Below are positions 46,890 to 56,571 of a stretch of DNA of 64,000 nt, in pieces; positions within the stretch are counted from its first letter, which is position 1; each line of letters begins with the position of its first letter. The notes under the pieces are model-generated. The model was given only the letters and a program-made list of their open reading frames with translations. It was not told where the DNA came from and did no database searches. This DNA is from Candidatus Segetimicrobium genomatis (GTDB lineage: Bacteria; Sysuimicrobiota; Sysuimicrobiia; Sysuimicrobiales; Segetimicrobiaceae). Location: the NCBI GenBank assembly GCA_005882275.1, contig VBAK01000112.1, positions 1 through 64,000 on the forward strand, read 5' to 3'. A program made the position numbers and the translations under genes.

Positions 46890-47125
46890 GCCACACGTCC
46901 GCCGAGATCAACGCAGCCCGCCCCGCAGGACACAGGGTCCCGGCATGAGACGGGCGCCATCCGCCTCGTCGGGAGCAGGGGCAATCCACCAAACGGATGG
47001 TTGGCCTCCCGAACGATCCAGACGAAACCCACAAACGAACGAGCCCCGGCGTTCACGATTGCGGGTATTGAGGAGACAGCAGGACGACACGAAGCCGGGT
47101 GGTCCCGATGCGGCAAGGAGCGGGG

Positions 47126-48475
47126 ATGGCCAGGGGGGAGCGCGGGGCCGTCATGATCTTCGTCCTCATGATGATCGTGCTGATCTGCGCGCTCACCATC
47201 GGCGTGATGCGGATCATCGGCGGCGGCGTGGCGGGAGGGGCGCAGTCGCTCGAGGCCGACCAGGTGTTCAACATCGCCCGGGCCGGCCTGCACTATGCGA
47301 TGGGCAGGCTCCAGATCACCGGGGCCGCCTCGTACGCGGGGGAAACGGTCTCGATCGCCAATGGGCCGGCACCCATGGGCAGCGCCGCGGTCGCGGTGAC
47401 CTGCATCGATACGGGGGCGGCCCCCCCGTGCAGCGGACCCTATGCGATGTACAGACGCATCGTGTCCACCGGGGCGCTGCCGGTGAGCGGCCCCGCCCGG
47501 ACGGTGGTCGCGGTCGTCCAGGACGGCGGCGGAAACAACGGCTACGGGGTCTGTTCCTACTCGTCGCTCTCCATCGTGGGACCGGACGTCACCACCATCA
47601 CGGGCGACATCGGCGCCAACGGCGCGATTGACGTGTCGTCCATGAACCAGCCGGGGACGTACGTGGTGGCCGGAGCGCCGGGCGTGTTTACCGGGAAGGC
47701 CGTGGCCGGGACCACGATCGCCTGCAGCGGCAGCTGCGGCCCGCAGATCCAGGGCGGCGCCTCCCCGAACACCGCCGTCGCGATCTGCCTGCCCCTGACG
47801 CTTCCCCCGTCCTCTCCAGGAACCACGAACAAGATCGTGGCCCTGCCGGGCTTCCCGATGGATCAAACCACCGGGTTCACCTGGGGCGACGTCACGGTGG
47901 CGGCCGGCGGATCGTCGGGCTCGTGCGGCGACACGTATAATACCCTCAGCATTCACGCCAGCGACGCCGACCCCAACGCCGTCACCGTGGTGCAGATCAA
48001 GTCGCTCACCATGGGGGCCTGCACGCGCCTGGCCATCCTCGGCGTGGGGAAGGTCGATCTGCGCATCGGCTCGACCACGACGCCGCCAACCGGCAACGTG
48101 CTGGCAATCGGGGGATCGGGATCGTCCCCGAACGATATCCATTTCGGGGTGACGTCCGCTGATAGGGGAACCGTGCCTGCGCCGGTGGCTCCCGGCCGGC
48201 TGACCGTGTGGGTGAGCTCGACCTGCACGCCGCCGGGATGCACGTGCGCCCAAAACACGGTCACGCCGACGTGCGCGGCGGCGGTCAGCCACATCGCCGG
48301 CACGGCCATCATCAATGTCCCGAACGGCTCATTGAACCTCGACGACAGCTGCCCTGTCAGCGGGACGATCACCGCCAACTGGGTCCTGCTCAGCGGGTGC
48401 GCCGATCTCGATGCGTCGGGCTACATGACCACGCCCACCAGTTTCTCCATTCTGCGGTCCTGGAAGGACCAGTAG
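47126..48475 (+). CDS. PilX-like type IV pilus-associated or surface protein
   Basis: A 449-residue protein. The N-terminus MARGERGAVMIFVLMMIVLICALTIGV resembles the PilX/minor-pilin-assembly type: short basic leader, then a long hydrophobic helix. The remainder is rich in Gly, Thr, Ser and paired cysteines, with repetitive beta-strand character and no catalytic motif. The ATG at 47126 is chosen because AAGGAG lies five bases before it; starts at 47099 and 47108 are possible. No other pilus genes are nearby, so the assignment rests on the N-terminal pattern. Confidence 0.55.
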   Translation: MARGERGAVMIFVLMMIVLICALTIGVMRIIGGGVAGGAQSLEADQVFNIARAGLHYAMGRLQITGAASYAGETVSIANGPAPMGSAAVAVTCIDTGAAPPCSGPYAMYRRIVSTGALPVSGPARTVVAVVQDGGGNNGYGVCSYSSLSIVGPDVTTITGDIGANGAIDVSSMNQPGTYVVAGAPGVFTGKAVAGTTIACSGSCGPQIQGGASPNTAVAICLPLTLPPSSPGTTNKIVALPGFPMDQTTGFTWGDVTVAAGGSSGSCGDTYNTLSIHASDADPNAVTVVQIKSLTMGACTRLAILGVGKVDLRIGSTTTPPTGNVLAIGGSGSSPNDIHFGVTSADRGTVPAPVAPGRLTVWVSSTCTPPGCTCAQNTVTPTCAAAVSHIAGTAIINVPNGSLNLDDSCPVSGTITANWVLLSGCADLDASGYMTTPTSFSILRSWKDQ

Positions 48476-48593: not shown

Positions 48594-49121
48594 ATGCGCC
48601 ATATCTTGCTCGGAATATTCCTCGTCGCCGCGCTCGCGCTGCCCGCGTCCGCCCAGCCGAGCGCGCTGCCGTTTGCCCTCACGCTGGCTTCGCCGCTCGG
48701 GTCTTCCTGGCACAAAGACGAGGTGCGGAGTGGGAGCACATTCGGCGGCGTCTCGGTGACCGGGAATATCATCGGGACATCGACCAAAGGAACGATCACC
48801 TTGTACGCGGCCGGACGGTTGTTCCTCCTCGGCCGCTACTCATGCGAATCCGGCGCATGCAATCTCAACGGGGCGGTCGCGGGAAAGAGCGTCACGCCGA
48901 TGCGCCTGGCCGCCGGGGGGTGGCTGAGCGATACGGGGAATGCGGTCTCCGCCGCGTTTCCGACCCGCGGGGCGTGGGTGGCCGCCGTGACGGAATGGGC
49001 GAACGCGAACCTGACCGGCGCCCAGCGGGCCAAGTTCGTCTCGGCTCTCAAGGGCGACCGCATCCAGACGTCCGTCAAGATGATGCCGGCCACTCCGGCG
49101 GGGCCGAAGGACAAGCCGTGA
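48594..49121 (+). CDS. Secreted protein of unknown function
   Basis: A 175-residue protein with a clean signal peptide (MRHILLGIFLVAALALPASAQ, cut after SAQ or ASA). The mature part has GSSWHKDEVRSGSTFGG, a cysteine pair (YSCESGACNLNG) and a helical end. No known family is recognised. ATG at 48594 behind GGAGGTGG. Its stop overlaps the GTG start of the ArsC-like gene (GTGA), so the two are probably co-translated. Confidence 0.65.
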   Translation: MRHILLGIFLVAALALPASAQPSALPFALTLASPLGSSWHKDEVRSGSTFGGVSVTGNIIGTSTKGTITLYAAGRLFLLGRYSCESGACNLNGAVAGKSVTPMRLAAGGWLSDTGNAVSAAFPTRGAWVAAVTEWANANLTGAQRAKFVSALKGDRIQTSVKMMPATPAGPKDKP

Positions 49122-49558
49122 TCGAGGACGCCGTGCCAACGGTGCTCTTCGTCTGAGTCGGCAATAGGGCCCGCTCTCAAATGGCGGAGGGGCTGTTCAA
49201 CGCGGCCCCTCCGCCCGGGTGGCGGGCGCGCTCCGCGGGGACGGAGCCGGGCCCCCGGGTCAGCGATGCGGCGATCGCCCTGATGCGGGAGATCGGCATC
49301 GACATCTCCGGGGGCCGCCCCAAGGGCCTCGCCGAAGCGATGGGGCCCGACGTCCGGCTGATCGTTGGGCTCTGCGCGGAGGAAGCGTGTCCGGTCGTCC
49401 CGGGCGTTCGCGCGCTGCACTGGCCGCTGCCCGATCCCCGCGAGCGGGACCTCATCCAATTCCGGGAGATCCGGGACGACCTTCGAACGCGGATCGCTCA
49501 GCTCGTCTCCCACCTGGCGCGCGGCCCGGAAGGAACCCCTCCGAAACGTAACCGGTAG
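49118..49558 (+). CDS. ArsC/low-molecular-weight phosphatase family protein with in-frame UGA at the catalytic cysteine (candidate selenoprotein)
   Basis: Read through the TGA at 49154-49156, this gives a 146-residue arsenate-reductase/LMW-PTP-type protein. The nucleophile motif is V-(UGA)-V-G-N-R-A-R-S-Q-M-A-E-G, so UGA stands exactly at the first position of C-x5-R. Downstream are the other family marks: SAGTEPG, REIGIDISGGRPK, a C86-x4-C91 pair matching the resolving cysteines of thioredoxin-linked ArsC (normally six residues apart), and HWPLPDP with the conserved aspartate. GTG at 49118 overlaps the upstream stop (GTGA). Either UGA encodes selenocysteine or the gene is interrupted; the ATG at 49181 would give a product without its active site. 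Confidence 0.6.
49183..49215 (+). promoter_or_regulatory. Possible SECIS stem-loop inside the ArsC-like gene
   Basis: GGCGGAGGGGC (49183-49193) and GCCCCTCCGCC (49205-49215) are perfect 11-bp arms around an 11-base loop beginning UG. The loop starts 37 bases after the UGA and has G among its first two bases. As I recall, bacterial SECIS elements need an apical loop 16-37 bases after UGA with such a G, so this meets the limits at the far edge. Coding constraint on both arms could be coincidence in a GC-rich gene. Confidence 0.4.
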
Positions 49559-49673
49559 ACGGATAGCGGATCGGCCGGCCCGCCCACGGGTGCGACCGGC
49601 TCGGAGGCCCCCATAGCAGGTCCCCTACCGAAGATCGAACCCTACGACCGCCGGACTCATTCGAGTTGCTTTC

Positions 49674-49693
49674 TGGTAACGTATATGTTACCA
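49674..49693. promoter_or_regulatory. Operator/promoter of the toxin-antitoxin pair
   Basis: Perfect 7-base arms TGGTAAC and GTTACCA around the six-base spacer GTATAT. A -10-like TATGTT (49684-49689) lies inside. The palindrome ends five bases before the toxin ATG, so a bound antitoxin would block transcription, the usual autoregulation of such pairs. Confidence 0.6.
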
Positions 49694-49698
49694 TCAAA

Positions 49699-50046
49699 AT
49701 GACGATGCTAACCGTCGTTGAGTATGTGCGGGAGGACGGTTCCAATCCATTCAGGACCTGGTTCGATAGCCTTCACGCGCAGGCGGCCGCGAAGGTCACT
49801 ACAGCGACGGCGCGGCTCGAGATGGGCAACACGTCGAACGTGAGGTGGATGGGGGCGATCGGCGAGTACCGTATCGATTGGGGGCCAGGTTACCGAATCT
49901 ATCTGATGCAAGATAGCGATGCATTGATCATCCTTCTGGGCGGGGGCACGAAGAGAGGCCAGCAAAGAGATATCGCACGGACGCAGGCGCTCGCGGCAGA
50001 ATATAAAGCACGGAAGGCCGCAACGAAACCAAAATATCGGAGGTGA
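49699..50046 (+). CDS. RelE/HigB-type toxin of a type II toxin-antitoxin system
   Basis: A 115-residue protein of the small toxin family often called the upstream gene of an addiction module: MTMLTVVEYVREDGSNPFRTWFDSL, MGAIGEYRIDWGPGYRIYLMQDSDALIILLGGGTKRGQQRDIARTQALA with the conserved YRI(Y) strands and C-terminal basic helix. RelE-fold toxins cut mRNA on the ribosome. ATG at 49699 (or 49705) has no ribosome site. The gene is richer in A and T than the region around it, a sign of transfer. The stop overlaps the antitoxin ribosome site. Confidence 0.85.
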   Translation: MTMLTVVEYVREDGSNPFRTWFDSLHAQAAAKVTTATARLEMGNTSNVRWMGAIGEYRIDWGPGYRIYLMQDSDALIILLGGGTKRGQQRDIARTQALAAEYKARKAATKPKYRR

Positions 50047-50051
50047 ACAGC

Positions 50052-50375
50052 GTGGCACTGACACGGGATTTCAAACAAACGGTAGTGGAGCGTGTGAGAC
50101 GTGACCCGGCCTATGCCAAAGCGCTCCTTGACGAGGCAGCCACGCTGTTTCTCAATGGCGAGCCGCACATGGCCCGCCTCATTCTGCGTAACCTCGTAAA
50201 CGCGACAATAGGCTTCGAGGCGTTGGCTGCCAAAACCGCGAAGCCCACCAAGAGCTTACACCGGATGCTTTCAAAGAGAGGCAATCCGAGCATGGACAAT
50301 TTAGCCATCATCCTCGGTGCCCTCCGCAAGAAGTTGAGGGTAGCCCTTAAGGCCCACACGGTCGACGCTGCATGA
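50052..50375 (+). CDS. Antitoxin of the type II system (addiction module antidote, HTH)
   Basis: A 107-residue partner of the preceding toxin: FKQTVVERVRRDPAYAKALLDEA, then ARLILRNLVNATIGFEALAAKTAKPTKSLHRMLSKRGNPSMDNLAIILGALRKKL, a helix-turn-helix of the XRE/HigA type. GTG at 50052 follows GGAGGT at seven bases; GTG at 50043 is the alternative. It should bind the toxin and, with it, the palindrome at 49674. Toxin-first order is the usual one for this subtype. Confidence 0.85.
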   Translation: MALTRDFKQTVVERVRRDPAYAKALLDEAATLFLNGEPHMARLILRNLVNATIGFEALAAKTAKPTKSLHRMLSKRGNPSMDNLAIILGALRKKLRVALKAHTVDAA

Positions 50376-53546: not shown

Positions 53547-55247
53547 TCAGTGCTTCGGCAGCCCGAACACGATCAACGCATCTCCATACGGATAACTGAG
53601 CTGGAAGTTCCCACCCGCGGCGACGGCGATGAATTCCTCGCCGTCCAATGCAAACGCCATCGGCGCCGCGTTCACCCCCGCCCCGGCCTGGAACTGCCAG
53701 AGCTGATCTCCGGTCTTGGCGTCGAAGGCGTCGAAGTTCCCGTTCCCTTCGCCGGTGAACACGAGCCCGCCCGCGGTGACGAACGACCCGCCCATCATCG
53801 GCTGGTCCATCTTCTTCTGCCAGGTCACCTTCCCGGTGTTGGTGTCGATCGCGGTAAACGTGCCGAACTGCTTTTCCGACGCGATGCTGGTGAACGCGCT
53901 CCCCAGCCACAGCTTGGCCTTCTGGTACGGGACGGAATGGACCGCGTACGTCATCGGCTGCTCCAGTGCGGCGACGTACACGTTCTGCGTCTGCGGGCTG
54001 TAGGAGGACGGCGACCACTCCGTGCCGCCGTTCGCGCCGGGCAGCATCCGGACCCCCTCGGCGGTCGGCTGGGCGAAGAGGTTTTCGTGGCGGACGAACT
54101 CCTCGCTGCGCAGGATCCGCTCTCCGGTCTGCCGGTTGAGGATGTAGAACCACCCCGTCTTGCCGGCGGCGCCCACCGCGTGGACGGTCTTGCCGCCGAC
54201 GGTCACGTCGAACAGCAGCGGCGGGCTCGTCTGGTCGAGATCCCAGACGTCGTGGGGAACCTCCTGGTAGTACCAGGCCAGCTTCCCGTTGGCCGCGTTG
54301 ACGGCCACGATCGATTCGGTGTAGAGATTGTCGCCCGGCCGGATCCCTCCGTCCAGATCGGGGGACGGGTTCCCCACCCCGAAGTAGATCATGTTCAGGT
54401 CCGGATCGGCCGCCGGGGTCACCCAGGTCGAGCCCCCGCCGCGCTTCCAGGCGTCCTGGTACTGGGGCCAGGCCGCCTTTTCCTTGGCGATATCCCGGTG
54501 CAGCGGGTCACCTTCCGGGGTCGTCGTCGCCCACTTGCCCTCCCATCCCGTGTCCGGGATCAGGTAGAAGCGCCACAACACCGCTCCGGTCTTCGCATCG
54601 TGCGCCTGGAGATATCCGCGGACGCCGTACTCGGCGCCCGAGGTGCCCACGATCACGATGTTCTTGTAGACGAGCGGCGCAATCGTCATCGCGTAGCCCA
54701 GCGTCGGATCGGCGACCTGCTTCGCCCACGCGACCTTTCCGGTCGCCGCATCGAGGGCGACCAGCTGCGCGTCGAGCGTGGCCATGTACACCATGCCGTA
54801 GCCGAGCCCCACGCCCCGGTTCACCGGGCCGCAGCAGAAGATCTCCGTCCCCGCCAGCTTGTGATCGTACCGCCAGAGCTGCTTCCCCGTCCGGGCGTTG
54901 AGCGCGAACAGGTGGTTGTACGCCGTCGTGATGTACATGACGCCGTTGGAGACGACCGGCGTGGTCTCGAACGACGCGACGATGCCCGTCTGGAAGATCC
55001 AGCGGGGGACGAGCTGCGACACGTTGGACGTGTTGATCTGATCGAGCGCGGAGTACCGGTCGTTGGTGTAGTCGTGGCCGTACATCAGCCACTCGTCCGC
55101 GTTGCCCGCGGCGGCGAGGAGCGCCGGTCCGTCAGGCATCATCCCCTGGGCCAGCACCGCTGCGGGACGCGGTCCCCCGGGAGAGGCGAGCAGGAGCGAG
55201 ACCCCAAGCACCAATGCGCAGGCCAACGCTGCCGTCCGTCGTTTCAT
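53547..55247 (-). CDS. PQQ-dependent alcohol dehydrogenase, possibly lanthanide type
   Basis: A 566-residue periplasmic quinoprotein with an eight-bladed propeller. Signal peptide residues 1-34. The vicinal disulfide is C138-C139 (IFCCGPVNRG). Predicted metal ligands are E206 (GAEYGVRGY), N293 (VGNPSPD) and D336. D338, two residues on in VWDLDQTSPP, is the extra aspartate that marks lanthanide-dependent XoxF and PedH enzymes. Repeated tryptophan-docking motifs such as DAKTGDQLWQF close the blades. ATG at 55247 behind GGAGGG. It has no cytochrome domain, so it needs a separate acceptor. Divergent from the pqq operon. Confidence 0.9.
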   Translation of the reverse strand: MKRRTAALACALVLGVSLLLASPGGPRPAAVLAQGMMPDGPALLAAAGNADEWLMYGHDYTNDRYSALDQINTSNVSQLVPRWIFQTGIVASFETTPVVSNGVMYITTAYNHLFALNARTGKQLWRYDHKLAGTEIFCCGPVNRGVGLGYGMVYMATLDAQLVALDAATGKVAWAKQVADPTLGYAMTIAPLVYKNIVIVGTSGAEYGVRGYLQAHDAKTGAVLWRFYLIPDTGWEGKWATTTPEGDPLHRDIAKEKAAWPQYQDAWKRGGGSTWVTPAADPDLNMIYFGVGNPSPDLDGGIRPGDNLYTESIVAVNAANGKLAWYYQEVPHDVWDLDQTSPPLLFDVTVGGKTVHAVGAAGKTGWFYILNRQTGERILRSEEFVRHENLFAQPTAEGVRMLPGANGGTEWSPSSYSPQTQNVYVAALEQPMTYAVHSVPYQKAKLWLGSAFTSIASEKQFGTFTAIDTNTGKVTWQKKMDQPMMGGSFVTAGGLVFTGEGNGNFDAFDAKTGDQLWQFQAGAGVNAAPMAFALDGEEFIAVAAGGNFQLSYPYGDALIVFGLPKH

Positions 55248-55522
55248 CACGCCCTCCTTATCGACATCATCGACATCGACGTGCTTGAACTTGACCTTGG
55301 AAACGGGTACGGCACCAGCCGGGCTCAGTCCTGACACGGGTGGAAGCAACATCACGCGCTATCGGGCAACCCTGGACGGAGGATATCTTTCTGTCGAGCC
55401 CGGCCGTCTCCCTTCTGGACGGATCAACTCGCCGGTCGACGGCGAACACAAGTTTGCAGGAGGAGAACGCCGCCGGAGCAAAATAGTGAGTGGACGTTGC
55501 CCGCGGAGGAGGTGACCTGGGG

Positions 55523-55594
55523 ATGTGGATCAAGCCCTGGTTCGAGGAAGTATCGCTCTGCGCTGAAGTCACCGCGTACGTCTATACGAAGTAA
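55523..55594 (+). CDS. pqqA: PQQ precursor peptide PqqA
   Basis: A 23-residue peptide, MWIKPWFEEVSLCAEVTAYV then YTK. The glutamate and tyrosine joined to make PQQ are E15 and Y19, with the required three-residue spacing. The MW-KP---E start is typical. AGGAGGTG precedes the ATG. It heads the pqqABCDE operon on the plus strand and is separated from pqqB by a strong hairpin. The 275-base upstream gap (55248-55522) contains the divergent promoters for this operon and the dehydrogenase, but no convincing -35/-10 pair was found. Confidence 0.93.
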   Translation: MWIKPWFEEVSLCAEVTAYVYTK

Positions 55595-55608
55595 CTGAAG
55601 TTCGCCCG

Positions 55609-55645
55609 GGGGCCGGTTCCGCGGATGAGAACCGGCCCCAGTTTC
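55609..55645 (+). terminator. Attenuator hairpin between pqqA and pqqB
   Basis: Perfect 11-bp stem GGGGCCGGTTC / GAACCGGCCCC (55609-55619 and 55629-55639) with a nine-base loop, followed by AGTTTCT. A partial terminator here would keep pqqA transcripts more abundant than those for the enzymes, as seen in other PQQ operons. Confidence 0.65.
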
Positions 55646-55665
55646 TCCCTTCCCTCGGTTCAGCG

Positions 55666-56571
55666 ATGCGCGTACGGTTGCTGGGCACTGCCGCCGGCGG
55701 CGGCGTCCCCCAATGGAACTGCCGGTGCGCGAATTGCCTGGCCGCCCGGCGCAGCCTGATCCCACCGCTCGCCCAGTGCTCCCTCGCATTTTCGCCGGCG
55801 GGGGAGGAATGGTACCTGGTCAACGCCACGCCCGATGTGACGCAGCAGCTCGCGCGATGGGAGGAGCTGCATCCTCAGTCGGGGATCCGCTCGACCCCCA
55901 TCCGCGGCGTGATCCTGACCGACGGAGAGCTCGACCACACGCTGGGGCTGCTGCACCTGCGCGAGGCCACGGGGTGGACGCTGTATGCGACCTCCCCGGT
56001 CGTGAGGATGCTGGACGACCATCTGCGCCTGCTGCCGGCCCTGCGGCGGTATGCTGAGATCCGCGTGCACGAGCTCTCCCTGGACGCGCCGCTGCTGCTC
56101 AGCGAAGGGGCCTCGCGGGTGGAAGTGCGTCTGGTGGAGACCGGCCGGCACCTGCCGCGCTATCTCGGCAGGCCCGCCGGCGCCGCCGCGGGCGTCGGCG
56201 TGGGCCTCATCCTGACGGACCTGTCCTCCGGCAGGCGGGTGGCGCACGCGCCGTGCGTCGCCGAGCTGTCGGACACCCTGCGCGACCATCTGCGGGGGGC
56301 CGAGGTCATCTTCTTCGACGGCACCTTCTGGAGCGAGGACGAGCTGCGCCGCCTCGGGATCGGCGCGGAGGGGGCGGCGGCGATGGGCCACATTCCGGTG
56401 GGCGGCGAGGCAGGCTCGGCGCTCTGGTTGTCGAAACTCTCCGCGCGCACCAAGCTGTACGTCCACCTCAACAACACCAACGTGCTGCTCGACCCGGCGT
56501 CGGCGGCGCGGGCGTGGATTCGCACCCTCGGTCTGGAGGTGGCCACCGACGGATGGGCGGCGACGCTGTGA
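55666..56571 (+). CDS. pqqB: Pyrroloquinoline quinone biosynthesis protein PqqB
   Basis: A 301-residue metallo-beta-lactamase-fold protein. PqqB signatures are LLGTAAGGGVPQWNCRCANCLAAR at the N-terminus (with the zinc-binding cysteines), GVILTDGELDHTLGLLHLRE, EVIFFDGTFWSEDELRRLG, MGHIPVGGEAGSA and HLNNTNVLLDP. It is the likely hydroxylase acting on the Glu-Tyr intermediate. Length matches the family. ATG at 55666; no clear ribosome site. Confidence 0.93.
   Translation: MRVRLLGTAAGGGVPQWNCRCANCLAARRSLIPPLAQCSLAFSPAGEEWYLVNATPDVTQQLARWEELHPQSGIRSTPIRGVILTDGELDHTLGLLHLREATGWTLYATSPVVRMLDDHLRLLPALRRYAEIRVHELSLDAPLLLSEGASRVEVRLVETGRHLPRYLGRPAGAAAGVGVGLILTDLSSGRRVAHAPCVAELSDTLRDHLRGAEVIFFDGTFWSEDELRRLGIGAEGAAAMGHIPVGGEAGSALWLSKLSARTKLYVHLNNTNVLLDPASAARAWIRTLGLEVATDGWAATL

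Follow-up and report, generated by a model that had tools for sequence, protein, structure and literature searches.

The locus described here raises a simple question: does a TGA at the catalytic position of an otherwise complete enzyme gene encode selenocysteine, or does it mark a gene that is damaged or wrongly read? In the window, by which we mean the whole analysed stretch of 64,000 nucleotides from Candidatus Segetimicrobium genomatis, a first-pass annotation had noted an ArsC/low-molecular-weight phosphatase gene that is open from 49118 to 49558 apart from one TGA at the catalytic cysteine of C-x5-R, and had proposed it as a candidate selenoprotein. The frame is as described: the TGA at 49154-49156 is its sole interruption, and it falls on the cysteine of a C-x5-R-S motif. 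When read through, the protein gives a full-length match to the LMWPc family PF01451 (E 5e-19), with 69.3 bits against a gathering score of 23.2.

The gene does start before the TGA, as had been claimed, but not at GTG 49118. In all homologues the start lies seven codons 5' of the TGA, which identifies GTG 49133 as the natural start. Residues are numbered here from this codon, so that selenocysteine (Sec) is residue 8 and the resolving-type cysteine pair, C86 and C91 in the earlier numbering, becomes C81/C86. The pair is indeed kept, in a relay loop LC-x-EEACP that is invariant in the Sec clade; C86 is also invariant in 35 aligned Cys-type relatives. The features of the locus are collected in Table 1.

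Table 1. Features of the Sec gene, its surroundings and the selenocysteine loci of the same MAG (positions are those of the window unless a contig is named).
Feature	Location	Strand	Basis or remark
Upstream gene, small protein with N-terminal signal-like segment	48594..49121	+	No Pfam or NCBIfam match
Putative Shine-Dalgarno-like GAGGA 5' of GTG 49133	49124..49128	+	Read from the sequence
Sec-containing ArsC/LMW-phosphatase-fold gene, 141 aa, predicted Sec8	49133..49558	+	Stop TAG 49556-49558; translation, PF01451, homologue starts
UGA, predicted Sec codon at nucleophile of P-loop U-x5-R-S	49154..49156	+	Codon alignment
P-loop UVGNRARS, oxyanion-binding loop	49154..49177	+	N11, A13, R14 and S15 invariant within Sec clade
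Predicted bacterial SECIS stem-loop	49183..49215	+	Perfect 11-bp stem 49183-49193 / 49205-49215; apical loop UGUUCAACGCG
Relay cysteine 1, C81, matches C82 of S. aureus ArsC	49373..49375	+	Alignment to 1LJU; invariant LC-x-EEACP
Relay cysteine 2, C86, matches C89 of S. aureus ArsC	49388..49390	+	Invariant
Two selA-selB-tRNA-Sec sets in MAG G000	C34:4025-8412; C11:65169-70118		

The most direct evidence on the TGA comes from its relatives. A six-frame search of 43 genomes from the phylum Ca. Sysuimicrobiota identified 15 close homologues, including the window gene, in 10 genera and three families at 60% identity or more. The nucleophile codon is TGA in all 15, aligned to the conserved cysteine of other homologues, and is TGC or TGT in all 97 matches below 60% identity, which is the pattern expected of the selenoprotein proposed earlier. 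One of the homologues (L005) comes from a genome of the same genus, G030, likewise Ca. Segetimicrobium genomatis. The Sec genes group together (SH-aLRT 95) in a tree built by a quick maximum-likelihood run, and because of this grouping the clade would fit a single change from Cys to Sec.

The nearest Cys relatives were found in Gemmatimonadota and reach about 60% identity; 395 genomes were searched there, and all 14 loci inspected have cysteine at the nucleophile site. Some Gemmatimonadota matches contain a TGA and were considered as further Sec genes; the six inspected all have cysteine at the site and were rejected. The stops within these matches lie elsewhere, and where re-alignment showed a stop it was near the C-terminal end. 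No UGA version from another phylum was present among the 80 best loci of a GTDB scan.

The codons that follow the TGA are translated. Differences between the window gene and its 14 homologues are mostly at third codon positions after the TGA (8 of 10 in the comparison with L101), and Nei-Gojobori dN/dS values for this region are 0.30, 0.09, 0.13 and 0.05 in four pairs. The region 3' of the TGA is therefore under purifying selection. Further frame breaks in close relatives would have spoken for decay, and the domain is free of them in every close homologue.

Decoding UGA as selenocysteine requires dedicated genes, and a search for selA, selB, selC and selD found all four in the genome. In the window's assembly, selA, selB and tRNA-Sec(UCA) lie together on contig C11, and selD on contig C81 carries a UGA of its own in the catalytic loop (AGUASK). 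FdhA, on contig C111, has a UGA within UHGP. Tetranucleotide usage of contigs C11 and C81 matches that of the window (0.994 and 0.984). A second selA-selB-selC-selD set is present on contig C34 together with another UGA-containing FdhA; its tetranucleotide match to the window is deviant (0.92), and it is probably a contaminant or was recently or horizontally acquired.

Among the 15 genomes with the Sec gene, 12 have a selB above the family cut-off. A binning artefact is ruled out for G001 (four contigs, 97% complete), since a single contig of 3.15 Mb carries both its Sec gene and a full selB. The three genomes that lack a complete selB are G006 and G022, which are 69% and 87% complete (in one order or the other), and G020, which is 93% complete and where part of selB is found at the end of a contig.

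Bacterial selenocysteine codons are followed by a SECIS hairpin, and the model of this element calls for a spacing of 16-37 nt, G within the first two bases of the loop, a loop of 3-9 nt and a minimum free energy of -7.5 or below (PMC13188914). The window stem had been described as lying within such limits, and this is largely but not wholly correct. Its stem is perfect over 11 bp, and extends to 14 bp at -31.4 kcal/mol when inner G-U pairs are included; the loop begins 37 nt past the UGA, exactly at the upper limit, and its second base is G, so that a G-U stands near its start. The 11-nt loop, however, exceeds the model unless a U-G pair closes it. Against a background of synonymous re-codings, folding of this region gives z = -4.1, and is thus stable beyond chance and beyond what the protein demands. 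Stems read by eye after the UGA of SelD and FdhA in the same genome likewise have GU-type loops, GUC and AGUUU respectively. An Rfam scan of the window returned no family.

The geometry is less regular across the family. In a simple scan only about six of the 15 homologues satisfy the strict model, and the scan fails to discriminate between Sec and Cys genes (p = 0.06), for which reason we rely on the synonymous-shuffle test. By that measure the Sec clade has the stronger local RNA structure: its mean z is -1.74 (n = 15), compared with -0.24 (n = 89) for Cys relatives, and p = 6e-6 if the relatedness of the sequences is ignored. Covariation across the 15 stems, judged by RNAalifold consensus and pair counts, does not rise above shuffles in a fixed register, because the stems shift register between homologues. 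A convincing SECIS follows the UGA of the window gene, its sister L101, L103, L105 and L113; in the remaining homologues it is uncertain. As a separate observation, the loop G is lost in five Sec homologues that keep the UGA (L100, L006/L102, L007/L107, L011/L109 and L113), where a CTC, ATC or TTC codon occupies columns 40-43 of alignment A1.

Other readings of the TGA have to be weighed against these results. The MAG is fragmented (200 contigs) with 5.9% contamination, and a single codon is affected, as it would be by a sequencing or assembly error or if a decaying gene had acquired a nonsense mutation. The same TGA nevertheless occurs in 15 distinct MAGs from 10 genera, at 60-93% protein identity, which rules out a base-call error even without a recheck of the reads; substitutions after it are mainly synonymous, and no close relative has cysteine at the site. 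Error and pseudogene are excluded. Equally improbable is a start at ATG 49181, by which the TGA would simply end a short upstream peptide. An open reading frame does exist at 49181-49558, but its 125-residue product would be without the P-loop, missing both the catalytic residue and the first strand, whereas all 15 homologues conserve the P-loop and the seven codons that precede the TGA (M-x-x-V-L-F-V). Finally, a suppressor or near-cognate tRNA might read through the UGA and insert a residue other than Sec, such as Cys or Trp. The weak or non-canonical SECIS of some homologues and the three carriers whose assemblies lack a complete selB would be in keeping with this. However, the genome has the full sel set and the known UGA selenoproteins SelD and FdhA, the site is the classic catalytic position for exchange of Cys by Sec, and many of these genes themselves terminate at TGA, so that there is no general reassignment of UGA. 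We regard such read-through as very unlikely. That the protein is a selenoprotein is, on its sequence and those of its relatives, close to certain.

What the enzyme does is a further question. An AlphaFold model (pLDDT 91.6) has as its best PDB matches the arsenate reductases of A. fulgidus and S. aureus, ahead of tyrosine phosphatases, and arsenate reductases are likewise the closest PDB sequences. The P-loop and both relay cysteines are present, with predicted Sec in place of the P-loop cysteine and a shorter relay spacing. The DP aspartate that serves as conserved general acid in low-molecular-weight tyrosine phosphatases is not maintained: the position is D in eight of 14 homologues, N in five and G in one. 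PF01451 is the only Pfam match of the protein, and PF03960 was not found in it. The score for the NCBIfam arsenate reductase TIGR02691 is 74.4 bits, short of its cut-off of 174.3, and as the NCBIfam arsC cut-offs are missed we file the protein as an ArsC-like member of PF01451 and not as a TIGR02691 equivalog. By sequence and predicted fold together it groups with arsenate reductases of the thioredoxin type and not with tyrosine phosphatases.

From the invariant LC-x-EEACP we infer an arsenate-reductase-like Sec-Cys-Cys cycle, for which pI258 ArsC, with its nucleophile, relay pair and reduction by thioredoxin, is the mechanistic model. SelB and Sec-tRNA(UCA) would decode the UGA with the help of the downstream stem-loop. 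By analogy with pI258 ArsC, the Sec8 selenolate would then attack arsenate or a similar oxyanion bound in the P-loop; attack by C81 would release arsenite and leave a Sec8-C81 selenenylsulphide, which C86 would resolve to give a C81-C86 disulphide, to be reduced by thioredoxin. As a whole, a thioredoxin-type arsenate-reductase-like selenoprotein with a Sec nucleophile is the best explanation of the gene, and a highly probable one. Arsenate as the physiological substrate is a less secure choice, though more likely than not the right one.

Several observations count against that choice, the unconserved DP aspartate among them. No ars neighbours were recognised at the window or at 12 homologue loci, where open reading frames were picked crudely in GC-rich sequence and selected ones identified. 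A search for conserved neighbours gave only an aldo/keto reductase, which adjoins four homologues, and a MOT1-type molybdate transporter at two. In the window, the upstream gene stops 11 nt before the start of the Sec gene and may be co-transcribed with it. The region directly after the Sec gene (49666-50375) encodes a RelE/ParE-type toxin (TIGR02683, above cut-off), followed by an antitoxin with a weak match to TIGR02684, and further downstream (53547-56571) a PQQ-dependent dehydrogenase of the methanol/ethanol family adjoins pqqB. A protein judged by eye to be of PilX-like pilin-assembly type is encoded near the Sec gene both in the window (47099-48475, without a Pfam or NCBIfam match) and in G001 (L134:7546-9660), in differing orientation. 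The same MAG has a Cys-type arsC (L002) in a separate cassette of about 3 kb on contig C69, in the order ArsR-like regulator, glyoxalase-family (ArsI-like) protein, GNAT and arsC, where all names except arsC were assigned by eye; a search for ACR3 gave no match, and both results likewise count against arsenate.

The protein might be a selenoprotein of a different kind, a tyrosine or arginine phosphatase or another oxyanion or persulphide enzyme. Its fold is common to LMW-PTP, Wzb and YwlE, ars neighbours were recognised neither at the Sec loci nor at the one Gemmatimonadota Cys relative examined, and the MAG already has an arsC in an ars cassette. On the other side stand the invariant relay pair, which is an ArsC feature, the arsenate reductases as closest PDB entries by both sequence and fold and, for a phosphatase in particular, the N or G that replaces the general acid in six of 14 homologues. 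We consider this reading possible but unlikely. A little less likely still is that the gene represents the first selenoprotein family of the P-loop Cx5R phosphatase fold, and one that is not primarily an arsenate reductase. If true, P-loop selenium and a Cys-Cys relay would serve another oxyanion, a persulphide or a redox-signalling substrate, which would explain both the absence of recognised ars neighbours and the lost phosphatase aspartate.

Comparison with known systems shows both what the protein has in common with them and where it departs from them. It shares with the thioredoxin-coupled ArsC of S. aureus pI258 and B. subtilis (TIGR02691, COG0394) the fold, the P-loop [C/U]x5RS, the overall length and an LC..CP loop that holds both relay cysteines; it differs in its predicted Sec nucleophile, in a C-x4-C instead of a C-x6-C pair, and in the score, aspartate and neighbourhood described above. 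By fold the arsenate reductase-like protein 1Y1L of A. fulgidus ranks first (TMt 0.88, 36% identity), and it has both the C-x4-C spacing and NP in place of DP, but its nucleophile is Cys. The closest relatives with Cys are those of the CVANSARSQ/CAEEVCP type from Gemmatimonadota and elsewhere, the nearest of them L147, L148 and L150; they have the same relay spacing, in CAEEVCP, but each member for which the nucleophile codon was read has TGC or TGT there.

Proteins of COG1393/PF03960 have a thioredoxin-like fold, and neither their sequence nor their fold is related to that of PF01451. They form a separate family, although they too include predicted Sec arsenate reductases, with UxxS and UxxC motifs, which are already known (PMC1088965; PMC2398784; PMC13188914). 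In the fullest inventory located, a 2026 compilation of 119 prokaryotic selenoprotein families, the arsenate reductases are solely of the COG1393 type (TIGR00014, NF041106), and PF01451/COG0394 is absent from it (PMC13188914) and from the Sargasso, GOS and deep-Sep surveys. A full-text literature search that combined 'selenoprotein' and 'COG0394' gave no match; an earlier listing, for example in a groundwater selenoprotein study, is possible. Given its absence from those inventories, we call the PF01451-fold gene a new selenoprotein family, as judged by sequence.

The finding would add the LMW-phosphatase/ArsC fold to those with selenocysteine at the catalytic site, by what appears to have been a single Cys-to-Sec event, since retained in three families of a phylum about which little is known. 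Annotation pipelines that read TGA as a stop would truncate the gene or miss it. It also makes the effect of selenium on a P-loop nucleophile testable, in terms of pKa, arsenate affinity and resistance to overoxidation, and the Cys relatives, which reach about 60% identity, provide a ready comparison for the Sec enzyme.
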